From contig JAIXQU010000027.1 in the NCBI GenBank assembly GCA_027485575.1, positions 1 through 32,490 of the forward strand: a stretch of DNA of 32,490 nucleotides. Reading direction: 5' to 3'. This stretch comes from Cytophagaceae bacterium (GTDB taxonomy: Bacteria > Bacteroidota > Bacteroidia > Cytophagales > Flexibacteraceae). The translations under genes and the position numbers were made by a program. Below are positions 5,822-31,970 of the stretch, piece by piece. The notes below the pieces were generated by a model. It was not told where the DNA came from. It saw only the letters and a list, made by a program, of their open reading frames with translations, and ran no database searches. Numbering within the stretch: the stretch's first letter is position 1; every line of letters begins with the position of its first letter.

Positions 5822-7726
5822 CTAAAAATGATACCGCACAAAAGCCTCCATGGCTTCGTAATCGGCAAGACCAAGTTTTTTATAGCGGTCAGCTGTTTCG
5901 CGGTTCCGGTCTTCGGCCCGTTGCCAGAATTCTCTTTTGTCTGCCCCTGGAAACATGGCCGAGTCCTTCTGACTTTGGTGTTTGAAAACGGCCCGGCGTT
6001 TCCTGAAAAGTTCATCCGGACTCAGCGGAACTGCCATTTCAATCTGGTCGATGTCCCATTCCTGCCATGCACCGCGGTACAACCAAACGTAGCAATCTTT
6101 CATCCAGGCTTCATTTTTAAGCTTTTCAACTGCCTCAAAAACAGCGGTTAAGCAAACCCTGTGTGTGCCATGCGGATCAGACAAATCACCGGCAGCATAA
6201 ATCTGATGGGGTTTGATGGATTGAAGTAAATCTATGGTAATGGCCACATCTTCCGGACCAATCGGTTTCTTTTTTACCGTGCCGGTTTCATAAAAAGGAA
6301 GGTCCTGAAAATGGATATTAGCTTCTGGAATGCCTACATATCGACAACCTGCTTTGGCTTCACCTCTACGGATTAAACCTTTGATGGCCTGCACTTCAGC
6401 CGTGTCTATCTGGCCTGGTTTTTTGTCTTTTATGGATTTGAGAATGCGTTGAAAAACAGATTCCGCCTCTTGTTTGCTCATGCCCATCATCTCATTGTAA
6501 TCTCTGGCAAAATCTGCAAACCGAATGGCGTCTTCATCAAAAACAGCAATGTTTCCTGAGGTTTGATAGGCTACATGGACATCATGTCCCTGGTCAGCCA
6601 AACGAATAAAAGTACCACCCATAGAAATAACATCATCGTCTGGATGCGGAGAAAAAATGACTACTTTTTTGGGAAAAGGCGTCGCTCTTTCTGGCCGGTG
6701 GGTATCGTCGGCATTGGGTTTTCCACCTGGCCAACCGGTGATGGTATGTTGTAACTTGTTGAAAATGTCTATGTTGATTTGATAAGCCGGTCCAAATTCT
6801 GTAACCAAATCAGACATGCCATGCTCGGCATAATCCTTGTTTGTGAGTTTCAAAATCGGTTTTTGCACCTTTTGGCATAACCAGACCACTGCCTTGCGGA
6901 CCAATCTCCTGTCTGACCAATCGCAGGTTTCCAGCAACCAGGGCGTTTTGATTCTTGTAAGTTCTGCTGAAGATGCCTCATCCAGAAACACGGTGGCATT
7001 CGGGTGATTCTGAATAAAGGTGGAAGGTATTTTTTCCGTAATCGGACCTTCTACTGCCTTCTGGATGATGCTTGATTTTCCTTCGCCCCAGGCCATCAGC
7101 AACAGGCGCTTTGCTTTCAAAATGGTGCCCACGCCCATGGTTATGGCTCGTTGGGGAACATTTTCTTCTCCAAAAAAATCGCTTGCGGCATCCACTCTAG
7201 TTACTTCATCCAGGGTAATCATCCGTGTGATGGAATTCATGGGAGAGCCCGGTTCATTGAAACCAATGTGGCCCGTCCGGCCAATTCCAAGCACCTGTAA
7301 ATCAATGCCTCCTAGTGCATCGATTTGCTTTTCATAGTCCAGACAAAAGTTGGGCACCTCAGCTTTTGCCAATGTGCCATCCGGAATATGAATCTGAGAT
7401 TTTGGAATGTCGATGTGGTCAAAAAGATGCTCAAACATAAACCGCACATAACTCTGTAATGAATCCGGATTCATGGGATAATATTCATCCAGATTAAAAG
7501 TATGCACGTTTTTGAAACTGAGTTTTCCGCTTTTTACCAAACTGACCAATTCTGCATATACCCGGGTTGGGCTGGAACCGGTTGCAAGTCCAATCACACA
7601 AGGTTTGCCCTCGGCTTCTTTGGCTTTGATTGCTGAGGCAATTTCCTGAGCAACAGCAATGGAGGCTTGCTCGGATGTGTTAAATATCTGCGTTGGAATT
7701 TTTTCGAGACGAAGGTTTTGATTCAT
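5822..7726 (-). CDS. nagB: NagB-LmbE fusion (glucosamine-6-phosphate deaminase-like)
   Basis: This 634-residue two-domain protein joins a NagB sugar-phosphate isomerase domain (about 1-270; GLATGSSPTRVY phosphate loop, Asp80 in FNLDEY, His153 and Glu158 in GHIGFNEPGS) to a PIG-L/LmbE zinc deacetylase domain (from about 350; SPHPDDD with His361, Asp363 and Asp364, and a second zinc site at SDPHGTHR). NagB converts glucosamine-6-phosphate to fructose-6-phosphate and ammonia; LmbE domains remove N-acetyl groups, so one protein might do both steps of GlcNAc-6-phosphate use, though this is inference. The fusion is familiar in Bacteroidota. In E. coli NagB the catalytic Asp141 precedes GH (DGH); here the motif is RTGH, so Thr151 stands in that position. 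No nagA, transporter or chitinase gene is adjacent. ATG at 7724-7726 is well supported by the domain start. Confidence 0.9.
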   Translation of the reverse strand: MNQNLRLEKIPTQIFNTSEQASIAVAQEIASAIKAKEAEGKPCVIGLATGSSPTRVYAELVSLVKSGKLSFKNVHTFNLDEYYPMNPDSLQSYVRFMFEHLFDHIDIPKSQIHIPDGTLAKAEVPNFCLDYEKQIDALGGIDLQVLGIGRTGHIGFNEPGSPMNSITRMITLDEVTRVDAASDFFGEENVPQRAITMGVGTILKAKRLLLMAWGEGKSSIIQKAVEGPITEKIPSTFIQNHPNATVFLDEASSAELTRIKTPWLLETCDWSDRRLVRKAVVWLCQKVQKPILKLTNKDYAEHGMSDLVTEFGPAYQINIDIFNKLQHTITGWPGGKPNADDTHRPERATPFPKKVVIFSPHPDDDVISMGGTFIRLADQGHDVHVAYQTSGNIAVFDEDAIRFADFARDYNEMMGMSKQEAESVFQRILKSIKDKKPGQIDTAEVQAIKGLIRRGEAKAGCRYVGIPEANIHFQDLPFYETGTVKKKPIGPEDVAITIDLLQSIKPHQIYAAGDLSDPHGTHRVCLTAVFEAVEKLKNEAWMKDCYVWLYRGAWQEWDIDQIEMAVPLSPDELFRKRRAVFKHQSQKDSAMFPGADKREFWQRAEDRNRETADRYKKLGLADYEAMEAFVRYHF

Positions 7727-8283: not shown

Positions 8284-10014
8284 ATGAATTTAAGCGATCT
8301 GGAAATACAAAAAAGAGAAAAAAAAACTCAGCTTGAGGCCTTAGGAATTAATCCCTATCCGGCTGAATCTTTTGAAGTAAATGTAACAGCGTCGGATATT
8401 TCAAAAAACTACGAGCGAAGAAAGATGGACTATAAACACGTCTTGATCGCAGGTAGACTAATGGGGTTCAGGATAATGGGTTCTGCATCTTTTGCAGAAT
8501 TACAAGACGCCACAGGTAGGATTCAATTGTATTTTAAAAGGGATGATCTTTGTCCAACTGAAGACAAAACCTTATACAATGTTGTTTTTAAAAAATTGTT
8601 GGACATTGGTGATTTTATAGGGGTTGAAGGATATGTTTTTACAACACAGACGGGTGAAATTTCTATCCATGTCAGCTCATTTAAGATTTTAAGTAAATCC
8701 CTGCGCCCCTTACCAATTGTAAAAAGGGAAATTGATGAAAATGGAAATGAAATAGTTCACGATGAATTCAGCGATCCTGAACTAAGATACAGACAAAGAT
8801 ATGTTGACCTGATTGTGAACCCACATGTTCGGGAAACATTCAAAAAAAGGACACAGCTTACCAATTCGATGCGGCAATACCTCAATGGGAAAGGCTATAT
8901 GGAGGTGGAAACTCCCATTTTACAACCCATTTATGGCGGAGCCGCAGCAAGGCCATTTAAAACCCACCACAATACCCTTGACATGACTTTATATCTCAGA
9001 ATAGCCAATGAATTATACCTTAAAAGGTTAATCGTTGGAGGTTTTGAGGGCGTTTATGAATTTTCAAAAGATTTCAGAAACGAAGGAATGAGCCGGTTTC
9101 ATAACCCGGAATTTACGCAAATAGAACTTTATGTCGCTTATAAAGACTATATATGGATGATGGACCTGGTGGAAGAAATGGTTGAAAAAGTGGCCATGGA
9201 CCTCCACGGGACGACTGAGGTTACCGTTGGAGAACATGTGATTAATTTTCAAAGACCCTGGAAAAGAATTTCAATGTTTGATTCAATAAAGGAATTTACA
9301 GGCATTGACATCAGCTTAATGAATGAAATGGAATTAAGGGAAACTTGCGGTTCTCTTCAGATTGAGGTTGATAATTCAATGGGAAAAGGTAAGCTTATCG
9401 ATGAGATATTTGGAAGCAAATGTGAACCTTACCTTATTCAACCAACTTTTATTACGGATTATCCGGTGGAGATGTCTCCTTTGGCTAAAAAGCATAGATC
9501 TATTCCTGGTTTGGTTGAAAGATTTGAAGCCGTTTGTAATGGAAAAGAAATTTGCAATGCGTTTTCAGAACTTAATGATCCTATTGACCAAAGAGCCCGT
9601 TTTGAAGAACAACTTGAGTTAGGAAAAAGAGGCGATTCTGAAGCAATGATTTTAGATGAAGACTTTTTGAGGGCTTTGGAATACGGAATGCCTCCTACCG
9701 CTGGTTTGGGGATTGGAATTGACCGATTGACAATGATTCTTACCAATTCTCCTACCATTCAGGAAGTTTTGTTTTTTCCACAAATGAAGCCTGAAAAACA
9801 ATTGATGGTTCCCGGGCAAAAAGATTTTGAGGATCTTGGAATTAGTTCCGGTATTTCAAAAATTTTATCTGCTATGAATTTCCAAAGCATTGAGGATTTT
9901 AAAAAAGGCAATCCCAACAAAATTTTCAATGATATGGGAGGTTTAAGGAAAAAATTAAAAATTGAAGAAAGCCTTCCCACTCTCGACCAAATCAAATCCT
10001 GGATGGGAGTATAA
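8284..10014 (+). CDS. lysS: Lysyl-tRNA synthetase (class II)
   Basis: This 576-residue enzyme charges tRNA-Lys with lysine in the cytoplasm. The N-terminal OB-fold that reads the anticodon is at about 50-150 ([20 protein letters not shown]). The class II catalytic core follows: motif 1 near [20 protein letters not shown], motif 2 as FRNEG at 264-268 with Arg265, and motif 3 as GLGIGIDRL with Arg481. A tail of about 70 residues after motif 3 ([18 protein letters not shown] onwards) is longer than in E. coli LysS. It resembles the helical extension found in Bacteroidota enzymes; its role is unknown to me. The start [20 protein letters not shown] fits the family. It appears monocistronic, with its own promoter box, and is followed by a dispersed repeat. 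Confidence 0.97.
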
Positions 10015-10017
10015 ATC

Positions 10018-10208
10018 TAACCCGAAAATGCCATGAGGAAATACCTGTCTGCCGACAGGCCGGTATGCTGAGTCTAAACTACTTCAAATCATAGACGTCG
10101 AAACCTTTTCTTTTGTATCTGTTGAGTCGTTACGGATTTCAAATAAAAAGTGGTGATTTTTTGCTTTTAGCACCTCGTAACGAAGTCCTGACGACAAATC
10201 CGGGTTTA
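10018..10208. repeat. Dispersed intergenic repeat, copy A
   Basis: This ~190-base stretch is similar along most of its length to 31753-31970. Shared blocks include CCCGAAA-TGCCAT-AGGAAAT-C, GTCTGCCG, TTTTCTT-TGT, GTTACG-ATTT-AAATAAAA-GT and AACGAAGT-CT. Its two ends are partly inverted copies of each other (TAACCCGAAAATG and, on the other strand, TAAACCCGGATTTG), as in a MITE. It also holds the perfect hairpin CCTGTC-TGCC-GACAGG at 10047-10062. The right end covers the aroA stop codon. Confidence 0.65.
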
Positions 10209-11453
10209 AGAAAAACGAAGTTCGTATCCGGATTTTTCCAATTCAATCCAAAAATCCGGATACGATTTTTCAACCACCTCCGGATTTTCAATTGACACCC
10301 CTTTTTCGAAAAAATTAGAAAAAATGCTTAACGACATCGCCATACGGTGGTCGTTATAGGTTTTAAATGGAAGGTTGGGTTCGATTAGATTTTGCCTGCC
10401 CGGAACATAGCAAAACCCCTTTTTTTCATCGATTTCAATTTTGACACCTACTTTTTTCAATTCTGTTTGCATTGCCAAAAGCCTGTTTGTTTCCTTAATT
10501 GCCAAAGATTGTAATCCTGAAAATCTGGCCTCAACACCAGTAGCCGCACAAAGTGCTATCAAAGTTTGACCTTGGTCTGGAATATTGCAAAAATCATATT
10601 CAAAGCATCGGTCTGGCTTTATATCTTCTTCTTTTGAAATAAGGACATCACCTGAATTGAACTTACTTGAAACTCCCCAGTTTCTGTAAATGGACTGGAT
10701 GGCTGAGTCACCTTGAAAGGAATTCTCAAAAAGACCATTAAGGCTGAGCGCTGTTCCAACCGGTAAAACTGCCAGAAAAGAATACCAATAGGCAGCTGCT
10801 GACCAATCTGATTCAATGAATAAACTTATCTTTTGAAATTCCTGGTTCGGAATATAAATCCAACTCTTGTTGAACGTCCCTTTGATGCCCAACCTTTCCA
10901 TTAAATTCCATGTCAATTCCAAATAGGGCCAGGAAGCAACTGTATCGCCTTTCAAAATTATTTTTATCCCATTTGGTAAAATAGGTCCCGCCATCATTAA
11001 AGCTGAAATATATTGGCTGCTGATGGTCGCATCAATTTCTATTTCTGATTTTCTATTTGAATAAAAGCCATTGAATTTCAAGGGAGGAAAACCTTTTCTT
11101 TCCAAATATTCAATTTCTGCACCAAGGTAAACTAAGGCATCAACAAGAATACCGATTGGCCGCTCCTTCATCCGCTCTGAGCCAGTAAGTATCCCTTTCT
11201 TTCCAGTCAAAGCCATATAGGCTGTGAAAAATCTGAAGGTGGTTCCGGCATCTCCTGCATCAAATATTTCAGACTGATTTCTGGTAAATCTTTCAAGGGT
11301 AACCGTATCCTTTGCCTTCGACAGGTTTGAAATTTCGATTTTGTCGCCAGAAACCAATTTTAAAATAAGCGCCCTGTTGCTTTCACTTTTCGAGCCAGGA
11401 AGAATTGGAGAAGAATTGGAAAGTTCCTTAAATCTAAGTTGTAAAATTGACAT
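10206..11453 (-). CDS. aroA: EPSP synthase (3-phosphoshikimate 1-carboxyvinyltransferase)
   Basis: This 415-residue protein catalyses the sixth shikimate step, joining shikimate-3-phosphate and phosphoenolpyruvate. Visible motifs are PGSKSESNR (Lys22, Arg27), DAGTTFRFFTA in place of the usual G-N-A-G-T-x-x-R, SSQYISALMMA, the KETNRLLAMQTELKK segment and DHRMAMSLSIF near the C-terminus. The length is slightly below the ~427 of E. coli AroA but the fold is complete. A terminator lies between porV and this gene, so it probably has its own promoter. The last codons contain a perfect 15-base inverted repeat and the stop codon lies inside the edge of dispersed repeat A; the C-terminal residues may have been set by that insertion. 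Confidence 0.94.
   Translation of the reverse strand: MSILQLRFKELSNSSPILPGSKSESNRALILKLVSGDKIEISNLSKAKDTVTLERFTRNQSEIFDAGDAGTTFRFFTAYMALTGKKGILTGSERMKERPIGILVDALVYLGAEIEYLERKGFPPLKFNGFYSNRKSEIEIDATISSQYISALMMAGPILPNGIKIILKGDTVASWPYLELTWNLMERLGIKGTFNKSWIYIPNQEFQKISLFIESDWSAAAYWYSFLAVLPVGTALSLNGLFENSFQGDSAIQSIYRNWGVSSKFNSGDVLISKEEDIKPDRCFEYDFCNIPDQGQTLIALCAATGVEARFSGLQSLAIKETNRLLAMQTELKKVGVKIEIDEKKGFCYVPGRQNLIEPNLPFKTYNDHRMAMSLSIFSNFFEKGVSIENPEVVEKSYPDFWIELEKSGYELRFS
10223..10264. repeat. Perfect 15-bp inverted repeat inside the aroA 3' end
   Basis: CGTATCCGGATTTTT (10223-10237) and AAAAATCCGGATACG (10250-10264) are exact inverted copies separated by 12 bases. They lie within the last ~20 codons of aroA. 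As RNA this would be a strong stem and may act as a terminator or 3'-end stabiliser. Confidence 0.8.
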
Positions 11454-31601: not shown

Positions 31602-31752
31602 TTCCGATTCAGAAATTATTGTACTCACTATGCCCTGGAATCTCTGGTTTTGATTTAGCATCAAACTTATAGCTTAGATTAACAGTCTTGCTTATCACAT
31701 GAACTGGTTCAACTTATGGATTTTTTTGGCTTTGTTAAGAAAGTAATTTATT

Positions 31753-31970
31753 TAAGCCCGAAATTGCCATTAGGAAATCCCCGTCTGCCGCCTTTTAAGT
31801 ATTCCGAGGTTAATCTGCTCCAATTCAAAGGTTTTACCACCTTTTCTTCTGTTTCCTTAGCGATGTTACGAATTTAAAATAAAAGGTACTGATTTCTTGT
31901 AAGCCTGCACAGCATTGCCATTGGGGTTAGGCTCTCACAACGAAGTTCTAACAAAAAATCTGGTTTCTTT
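31753..31970. repeat. Dispersed intergenic repeat, copy B
   Basis: Similar to copy A at 10018-10208 in the same orientation, with an extra ~30 bases near its middle-right. Matching blocks are the opening AAGCCCGAAATTGCCATTAG, GTCTGCCG, CCTTTTCTTCTGT, GTTACGAATTTAAAATAAAA and CACAACGAAGTTCTAAC. It lies in the ~550-base gap between the cytochrome gene and the amylase gene; the flanks show nothing else recognisable. Confidence 0.65.

Follow-up and report, generated by a model that had tools for sequence, protein, structure and literature searches.

The two diverged intergenic repeats (copies A and B) in the window, the 32,490-nucleotide stretch of Cytophagaceae DNA analysed here, appear to be old copies of a MITE that IS1380-type DDE transposases most likely mobilised in trans and that carries a fold preserved while the element was mobile. 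We favour this reading with somewhat better than even confidence.

Two copies of one repeat in the window

The original prediction described A and B as diverged copies of one repeat lying on the same strand, and the local alignment agrees: A against B scores 84, beyond the maximum of 30 in 1000 dinucleotide shuffles, whereas A against the reverse complement of B scores 23. The likeness thus stood, while the predicted edges shifted slightly, from 10018–10208 to 10021–10204 for A and from 31753–31970 to 31757–31963 for B (Table 1), and the ends that had been called partly inverted are terminal inverted repeats. The peptide NEVLT can indeed be read in the alignment of both copies (AAC GAA GTC CTG ACG in A, AAC GAA GTT CTA ACA in B), a reading that merely mirrors the conserved right end of the element, and neither copy holds an open reading frame of 80 amino acids or more.

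Table 1. Positions in the window of the two element copies, their parts and the genes beside copy A
Feature	Position	Strand	Evidence or remark
Copy A of the element	10021..10204	model-forward on +	genome searches, end matches, covariance model
Left target-duplication-like TCTAA of A	10016..10020		4/5 bases agree with right flank
Left terminal inverted repeat of A, CCCGAAAATGCCATGAGGA	10021..10039	+	end scan, alignment
20-bp palindrome module in A, CCTGTCTGCCGACAGGCCGG	10044..10063		motif matches
Right terminal inverted repeat of A, CCCGGATTTGTCGTCAGGA on -	10186..10204	-	end scan, alignment
Right target-duplication-like TTTAA of A	10205..10209		contains aroA stop codon 10206-10208 (-)
Copy B, long form, decayed including right end	31757..31963	+	flanks TTAAG / TTTCT
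Left terminal inverted repeat of B, CCCGAAATTGCCATTAGGA	31757..31775	+	end scan, alignment
lysS, lysyl-tRNA synthetase	8284..10014	+	PF00152 3.1e-91; 3' end 6 bp from element
aroA, EPSP synthase	10206..11453	-	PF00275 5.4e-66; stop codon in right flank of A

A covariance model of the family matches A at 10044–10204 (57 bits) and B at 31816–31901 (52 bits), and a search with the family consensus matches B at 31751–31966 with 80% identity to the consensus. The target duplication of A agrees in four of five bases and that of B is not recognisable; the forward-strand fold of B is no better than that of its shuffles (z +2.2). The evidence for a MITE is weaker for the window copies themselves than for the family as a whole.

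A has the convergent genes lysS and aroA on its two sides, and B sits between two co-directional genes. Despite the stop codon in the flank of A, aroA still extends to position 415 of the 417 of PF00275. A terminator role for A was considered and found no support, with 0 terminator-like sites in 9500–10700 against 1.1 expected. At the lysS site none of four congeners has a profile match, and gene order differs there, so that no clean empty site is available. Elsewhere in the window, the minus-strand gene at 5822–7726 looks from its sequence like a fusion of glucosamine-6-phosphate deaminase with a deacetylase-like domain.

A dispersed family in the host genome

A profile search of the genome, proposed alongside the original prediction, turned the two copies into many. 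The element occupies at least 65 distinct places in the host genome (fetched and profiled), and in at least 45 of these a single piece spans both ends, where a place is counted at a profile score of at least 15 bits and fragments, as well as many degenerate copies, are included. An additional copy beyond those 65 lies at C89:14023-14194. As queries against the same genome, copy A gives at least 46 matches, some of which are pieces of one copy, and the family consensus gives at least 56. The host genome is a draft assembly of 198 contigs, a state that lends itself to the suspicion of an assembly artefact or of chance similarity; this explanation is refuted and has a negligible probability, since the A/B alignment exceeds its shuffle controls, the 65 or more places lie in differing surroundings, and homologues occur in other genomes of the order.

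The 65 places span 36–222 bp and include forms of ~190 bp and of ~220 bp, the latter with an extra hairpin of ~30 bp. A few host copies and most fetched congener copies are ~165 bp long and have neither the extra hairpin nor a 20-bp palindrome, CCTGTCTGCCGACAGGCAGG, that is found in many host copies (28 matches in the genome). This palindrome is a present-or-absent module (window 10044–10063; L053, L054, L059), and it is also seen in two other genomes of the order that have no recognised element of the same fold. That it spreads on its own in the host genome found no support, all 28 matches lying in or at element copies.

Classified by their neighbours, mechanically called open reading frames of at least 80 amino acids, 12 host copies lie between convergent, 18 between co-directional and five between divergent genes, and ten host copies, like three congener copies, are unclassifiable; the orientation count leaves out L259. 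A second set of 40 elements gives 13, 24 and three, respectively. Among 58 gene ends reading into host or congener copies, 13 have their stop within the TTWAW flank, 1–3 bp past the edge of the profile match, and four extend deeper; aroA belongs with the 13. Between co-directional genes, 17 of 18 host copies have one orientation relative to the genes (nine of ten with stricter reading frames), and this orientation is mixed in other genomes, unlike in the host.

Terminal inverted repeats and target duplications

The ends of the element are ~19 bp long and of the type CCC...TTAGRA; one reads CCCAGAATAGTCATTAGGA or CCCGGAATTGCCATTAGGA, and its inverted partner is imperfect. A scan of the host genome with the end motif yields 44 forward and 41 reverse matches, compared with 2 and 0 in the control.

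Exact 5-bp duplications flank 34 of 82 elements, against 12.4 with shuffled partners (maximum 23 in 2000 shuffles), and exact 6-bp duplications flank none of the 82; the consensus of the duplicated target is TTWAW. By source, exact duplications were found for 17 of 43 elements in the host genome, 4 of 13 in congeners and 13 of 26 in other families, and for the congeners alone the excess does not go beyond every shuffle (1.3 expected, maximum 5). A second, partly overlapping set of 40 elements, taken from the top of the order-wide match list and including four congener rows, has 27 exact 5-bp duplications; at least two of its congener places recur among the earlier congener rows. The target duplications that the original prediction had suggested looking for are thus present at the level of the family, as are the other features that make the element MITE-like, namely short length, lack of coding capacity, many copies and inverted ends.

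Ends-only elements of 40–58 bp were also observed, two with an exact TTAAA duplication (L194 2317–2371 and L198 3237–3276) and two with none that is exact (L197 3302–3341 and L147 455–512), and the ends by themselves may suffice for insertion. In the genomes G000 and G001 (for example L120, L123 and L135–L153) a second group of palindromic MITEs, 58–220 bp long, has related ends (CCCAGATTCCGCATTAGGA, CCCAAATTCCGCAATAGAA and CCCAGATTATGCAATAGGA), with exact 5-bp duplications in 11 of 24 among those listed. A pattern spanning both MITE groups has 176 matches in G001 and 3 in the control.

A hairpin conserved across families of the Cytophagales

The original prediction had also proposed a search for conserved structure, and the element indeed forms one hairpin from end to end with compensatory changes across families. 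When the structure of a single genus copy is laid over a structure-blind alignment of 30 elements, paired cells make up 82.2%, compared with 71.6% in shuffled alignments (0 of 500). Two-sided changes occur in 46 of 60 pairs against 27.1 when shuffled, and in 218 cells against 76.5 (each 0 of 500), and when the partners are slid by 1–3 columns there are at most 57 two-sided cells. Because several of the 30 elements are closely related, the count was rerun on 17 representatives of less than 80% identity, where 43 of 59 pairs have two-sided changes against 24.2 shuffled (maximum 32) and 129 cells are two-sided against 46.5 (maximum 65, 500 shuffles each); sliding gives at most 20 pairs and 34 cells.

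RNAalifold returned 29 pairs from the 30-element alignment, 21 of them with two-sided changes and all in the outer half. From a 60-row alignment it returned an empty structure, and consensus folds and covariance models were used instead. In a model-fitted alignment of eight elements, which leans to the structure by construction, 38 of 59 pairs are two-sided. Rfam (Rfam 15) has 0 matches above the gathering score in the window, and at E up to 5 across five loci the one match to an element is RF04228, with 22.3 bits against 140 and E 3.1. Of the two natures proposed originally, a MITE-like or an RNA element, the features of the first and a conserved fold are both present, with no matching Rfam family. 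These proposals need not exclude each other, as the element is a MITE with a strand-biased folded interior.

Homologues extend well beyond the genus. Within the host's family all four congeners are positive, and sequence and model searches found the element in none of six genomes from five other genera. A first covariance model, built from nine genus copies, finds unseen elements in three other families (E 1.4e-26, 2.8e-23, 3.9e-18, 1.6e-16 and, for those of G058, 1.3e-12 to 5.9e-9). The held-out homologues for this model were fetched via their ends; since ends-only elements reach just ~20–34 bits, the interior supplies the remaining score. A second model, from eight diverged copies including those of G000, G057, G058, G095, G131 and G231, matches 46 of 390 genomes of the order at E <=1e-4, in 22 of 129 genera and nine families, its weaker matches being partly short and ends-only; at 1e-9 it matches 35 of 390 genomes in six families. 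Copy numbers per genome across these 390 are lower bounds, with up to 7 candidates scored in each. Among the best elements of 30 genomes, 27 have a length of 163–168 bp. In a midpoint-rooted tree of 70 elements, those from f1, from f10 and from f15 group by family into a single clade each (support 0.976–0.995), and such family-wise clades fit long residence within lineages. Searches of plasmids, phages and viral contigs, with one query or pattern each, found no element.

The apex CACCRTAGCGGTGCTAYG of elements from other families (for example L245 and L248) could fold into either of two small hairpins that preclude each other, CACC/GGTG or RTAGC/GCTAY. These alternatives, seen by eye in the alignment, could possibly act as a switch.

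The fold is biased to one strand

On the model-forward strand, the mismatch A.C occurs 233 times and the wobble G.U 58 times among the 70 elements; measured against shuffled columns, the level retained is 0.27 for G.U and 0.58 for A.C. A.C is in excess in 16 of the 17 representatives and G.U in none, with one tie. The test is conservative, because structure prediction used the forward strand and would favour G.U there. An A.C mismatch reads as G.U on the opposite strand, and accordingly the reverse strand folds more stably: this holds for 29 of 30 elements (mean -62.8 vs -49.4 kcal/mol), for all 40 of the second set and, with DNA parameters, for all 17 representatives. In the window the better-folding strand is the minus strand for both A and B. 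Wobbles that are retained about twice as readily on one strand suggest that a single strand is what folds, either as RNA or as ssDNA. The candidate explanation of a cruciform or purely palindromic constraint is weakened by this bias.

Resident copies decay without compensation

A neutral-decay test was carried out within the host genome on 18 short-form and 14 long-form copies, chosen by length and sequence from the 45 two-ended ones. The short form keeps 983 of 1096 pairs against 974.1 simulated (sd 6.0) and the long form 763 of 1001 against 775.7 (sd 9.5). Double-hit pairs number 14 against 8.6 simulated in the short form, a point against free decay, and 28 against 33.2 in the long form, and compensated pairs 5 against 3.8 and 10 against 14.9. 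New mutations in the host copies have no strand bias (G.U 123, A.C 118), and the inherited bias remains, the reverse strand being more stable in 36 of 44 host copies, a comparison that took in 44 of the 45. The forward-strand fold lies at z -6.7 to -11.0 relative to shuffles in 10 of 15 congener copies, and above z -2 in 20 of 45 host copies. Resident copies are therefore not visibly constrained; they mutate without compensation or strand bias.

These observations bear on two further explanations. In the first, a plain MITE, the hairpin is a by-product of palindromic origin without function for the fold, and template switching between the arms (quasipalindrome correction) or a strand bias of mutation in mobile copies would keep it similar. 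The related genus MITEs, likewise palindromic with other interiors, fit such an origin, as does the abundance of double changes next to a scarcity of one-sided ones. Template switching is strand-symmetric, however, and the wobble bias is not; the residents lack the excess of compensation (5 vs 3.8 and 10 vs 14.9 simulated), and conservation in unpaired columns, which have not been erased, comes close to that in paired ones (mean majority 0.72 vs 0.78). We regard this explanation as unlikely.

In the second, which we consider quite improbable, the MITE carries a structured RNA of benefit to the host, an sRNA or an mRNA 3' element, of which a few master copies work and the rest are dead offspring. 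The strand-biased fold, its wide conservation in the order, the single clades of the f1, f10 and f15 elements (support 0.976–0.995) and the preponderance of convergent over divergent neighbours (12 vs 5 in the host, 13 vs 3 in the second set) would all suit such an RNA. Against it, no copy was seen to persist at its site (at lysS, the single site examined, all four congeners are without one), the residents decay freely, no Rfam family matches, and the element was not found in the six genomes of other genera in the family.

IS1380-type transposases as candidate mobilisers

Its ends, its duplications and its IS1380 relatives place the element, by sequence, among the MITEs, with IS1380 as the most likely affiliation. 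Ends common to the element and to IS1380 elements or remnants were found at L209 (CCCAAAATTGTCATTAGGA), L206 and L201. The genome G055 contains a 1440-bp IS1380-like pseudo-element in which identical ends, CCCAAAATTGTCATTAGGA, surround IS1380 pieces, with no exact duplication. In G196 a broken transposase ends near a matching end (PF13701 5.9e-16, NCBIfam IS1380 NF033539 7.9e-18), and G107 has several similar remnants near contig ends. An end scan around the intact IS1380 gene of G191 (440 aa) picked out CCC ends flanked by duplicated TTTAA, and around that of G224 CC ends with an ACTTG duplication, each being the best of many. The same scan gave nothing convincing for the intact gene of G044, a genome that also carries an element flanked by duplicated TTAAA. 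On two Arcobacteraceae plasmids, no convincing ends were found for the IS1380 genes.

Two expectations of mobilisation by IS1380 gave different outcomes. ISEcp1, a member of IS1380, is described as making 5-bp duplications with a preference for AT-rich targets (PMC2887853), and 5-bp AT-rich duplications are what the element family has (34 of 82 exact). A partner transposase in the same genome was found in 0 of 11 genomes of the host's family, the host included, searched with PF13701, and in one of 20 element carriers (G044) among 241 genomes of the order, where 19 match PF13701 at all and six exceed the cut-off. Element and IS1380 partner are thus seldom together, and among the end matches of the host genome no end pair at IS length stood out.

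The rarity of PF13701 in carriers (1 of 20) and its absence from the host's family would be expected if the mobiliser were instead another, non-IS1380 DDE family sharing CCC ends by chance. This we hold to be rather unlikely, given that similar ends occur on IS1380 elements or remnants in G055, G191 and G196 and that the duplications and targets resemble those given for ISEcp1 (PMC2887853).

Discussion

In the reading we favour, IS1380-type DDE transposases would recognise the ~19-bp CCC...TTAGRA ends and insert the element at TTWAW targets, of which 5 bp would be duplicated. A lineage that still jumps would have to keep its fold as a single strand, be it RNA or ssDNA exposed in transposition, and one particular strand would have to stay folded. 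After landing, this constraint would be gone and copies would decay, persisting where they do little harm, often with the TAA stop of a neighbour inside the duplicated target. The conservation of the fold across lineages, together with its free decay within a genome, suggests selection on propagating copies, and the simplest reading is that the folded single strand matters to the propagating lineage and not to the host at each site. What the folded strand does we infer, and mutation with a strand bias in mobile copies could produce part of the same fold and strand signal. As a tentative possibility, which we think doubtful, the element may be a bacterial counterpart of a SINE, that is, a parasite of DNA transposons whose spread needs one specific strand to fold in single-stranded form, as RNA of the element or as an ssDNA intermediate, with selection on mobile copies only keeping the fold across families of the Cytophagales.

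The likeness to IS1380 insertion sequences such as ISEcp1 rests on the CCC-type ends and the 5-bp AT-rich duplication (PMC2887853); unlike them, the element is ~165–220 bp long and has no transposase. ERIC/IRU and Correia/NEMIS elements are described as intergenic sequences of 100–200 bp whose transcripts fold into long stem-loops, and ERIC effects as dependent on orientation (PMC2229807). The ERIC consensus sequence has a length of 127 bp. Compared by description only, the element resembles them as a short, intergenic and palindromic sequence, but differs in its 5-bp TTWAW duplication in place of TA-type termini, its host group and its proposed partner IS class. For REP/RAYT (a 20–40-bp palindrome with a GTAG/CGTC tag and a RAYT transposase), the duplications and inverted ends argue against a correspondence. 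The second MITE group of the genus shares related ends, 5-bp duplications and a palindromic build with the element, whereas its interiors give full-length scores of 12–28 bits with the model, about what ends alone give. Cardinium belongs to the same order as the host. Its MITECca01, also a MITE, is described as ~240 bp long and IS982-derived, with no counterpart found in other Cardinium strains (PMC9769881). The main text of a review of prokaryotic MITEs mentions neither IS1380 nor Bacteroidetes (PMC10969869), and the literature searched names no such element family.

Between-lineage covariation, uncompensated resident copies and wobbles mainly on one strand are what tell selection on a fold apart from structure as such. 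To our knowledge, hairpin-forming bacterial MITEs are usually described as structured, and whether the fold is selected is not asked. IS1380-type transposition, in the form of ISEcp1, spreads ESBL genes. If our reading is true, the fold serves the mobile element and not the host, and IS1380-type transposition would have an unrecognised single-strand step or RNA cofactor; the element also provides a marker family for the history of insertions in the Cytophagales.
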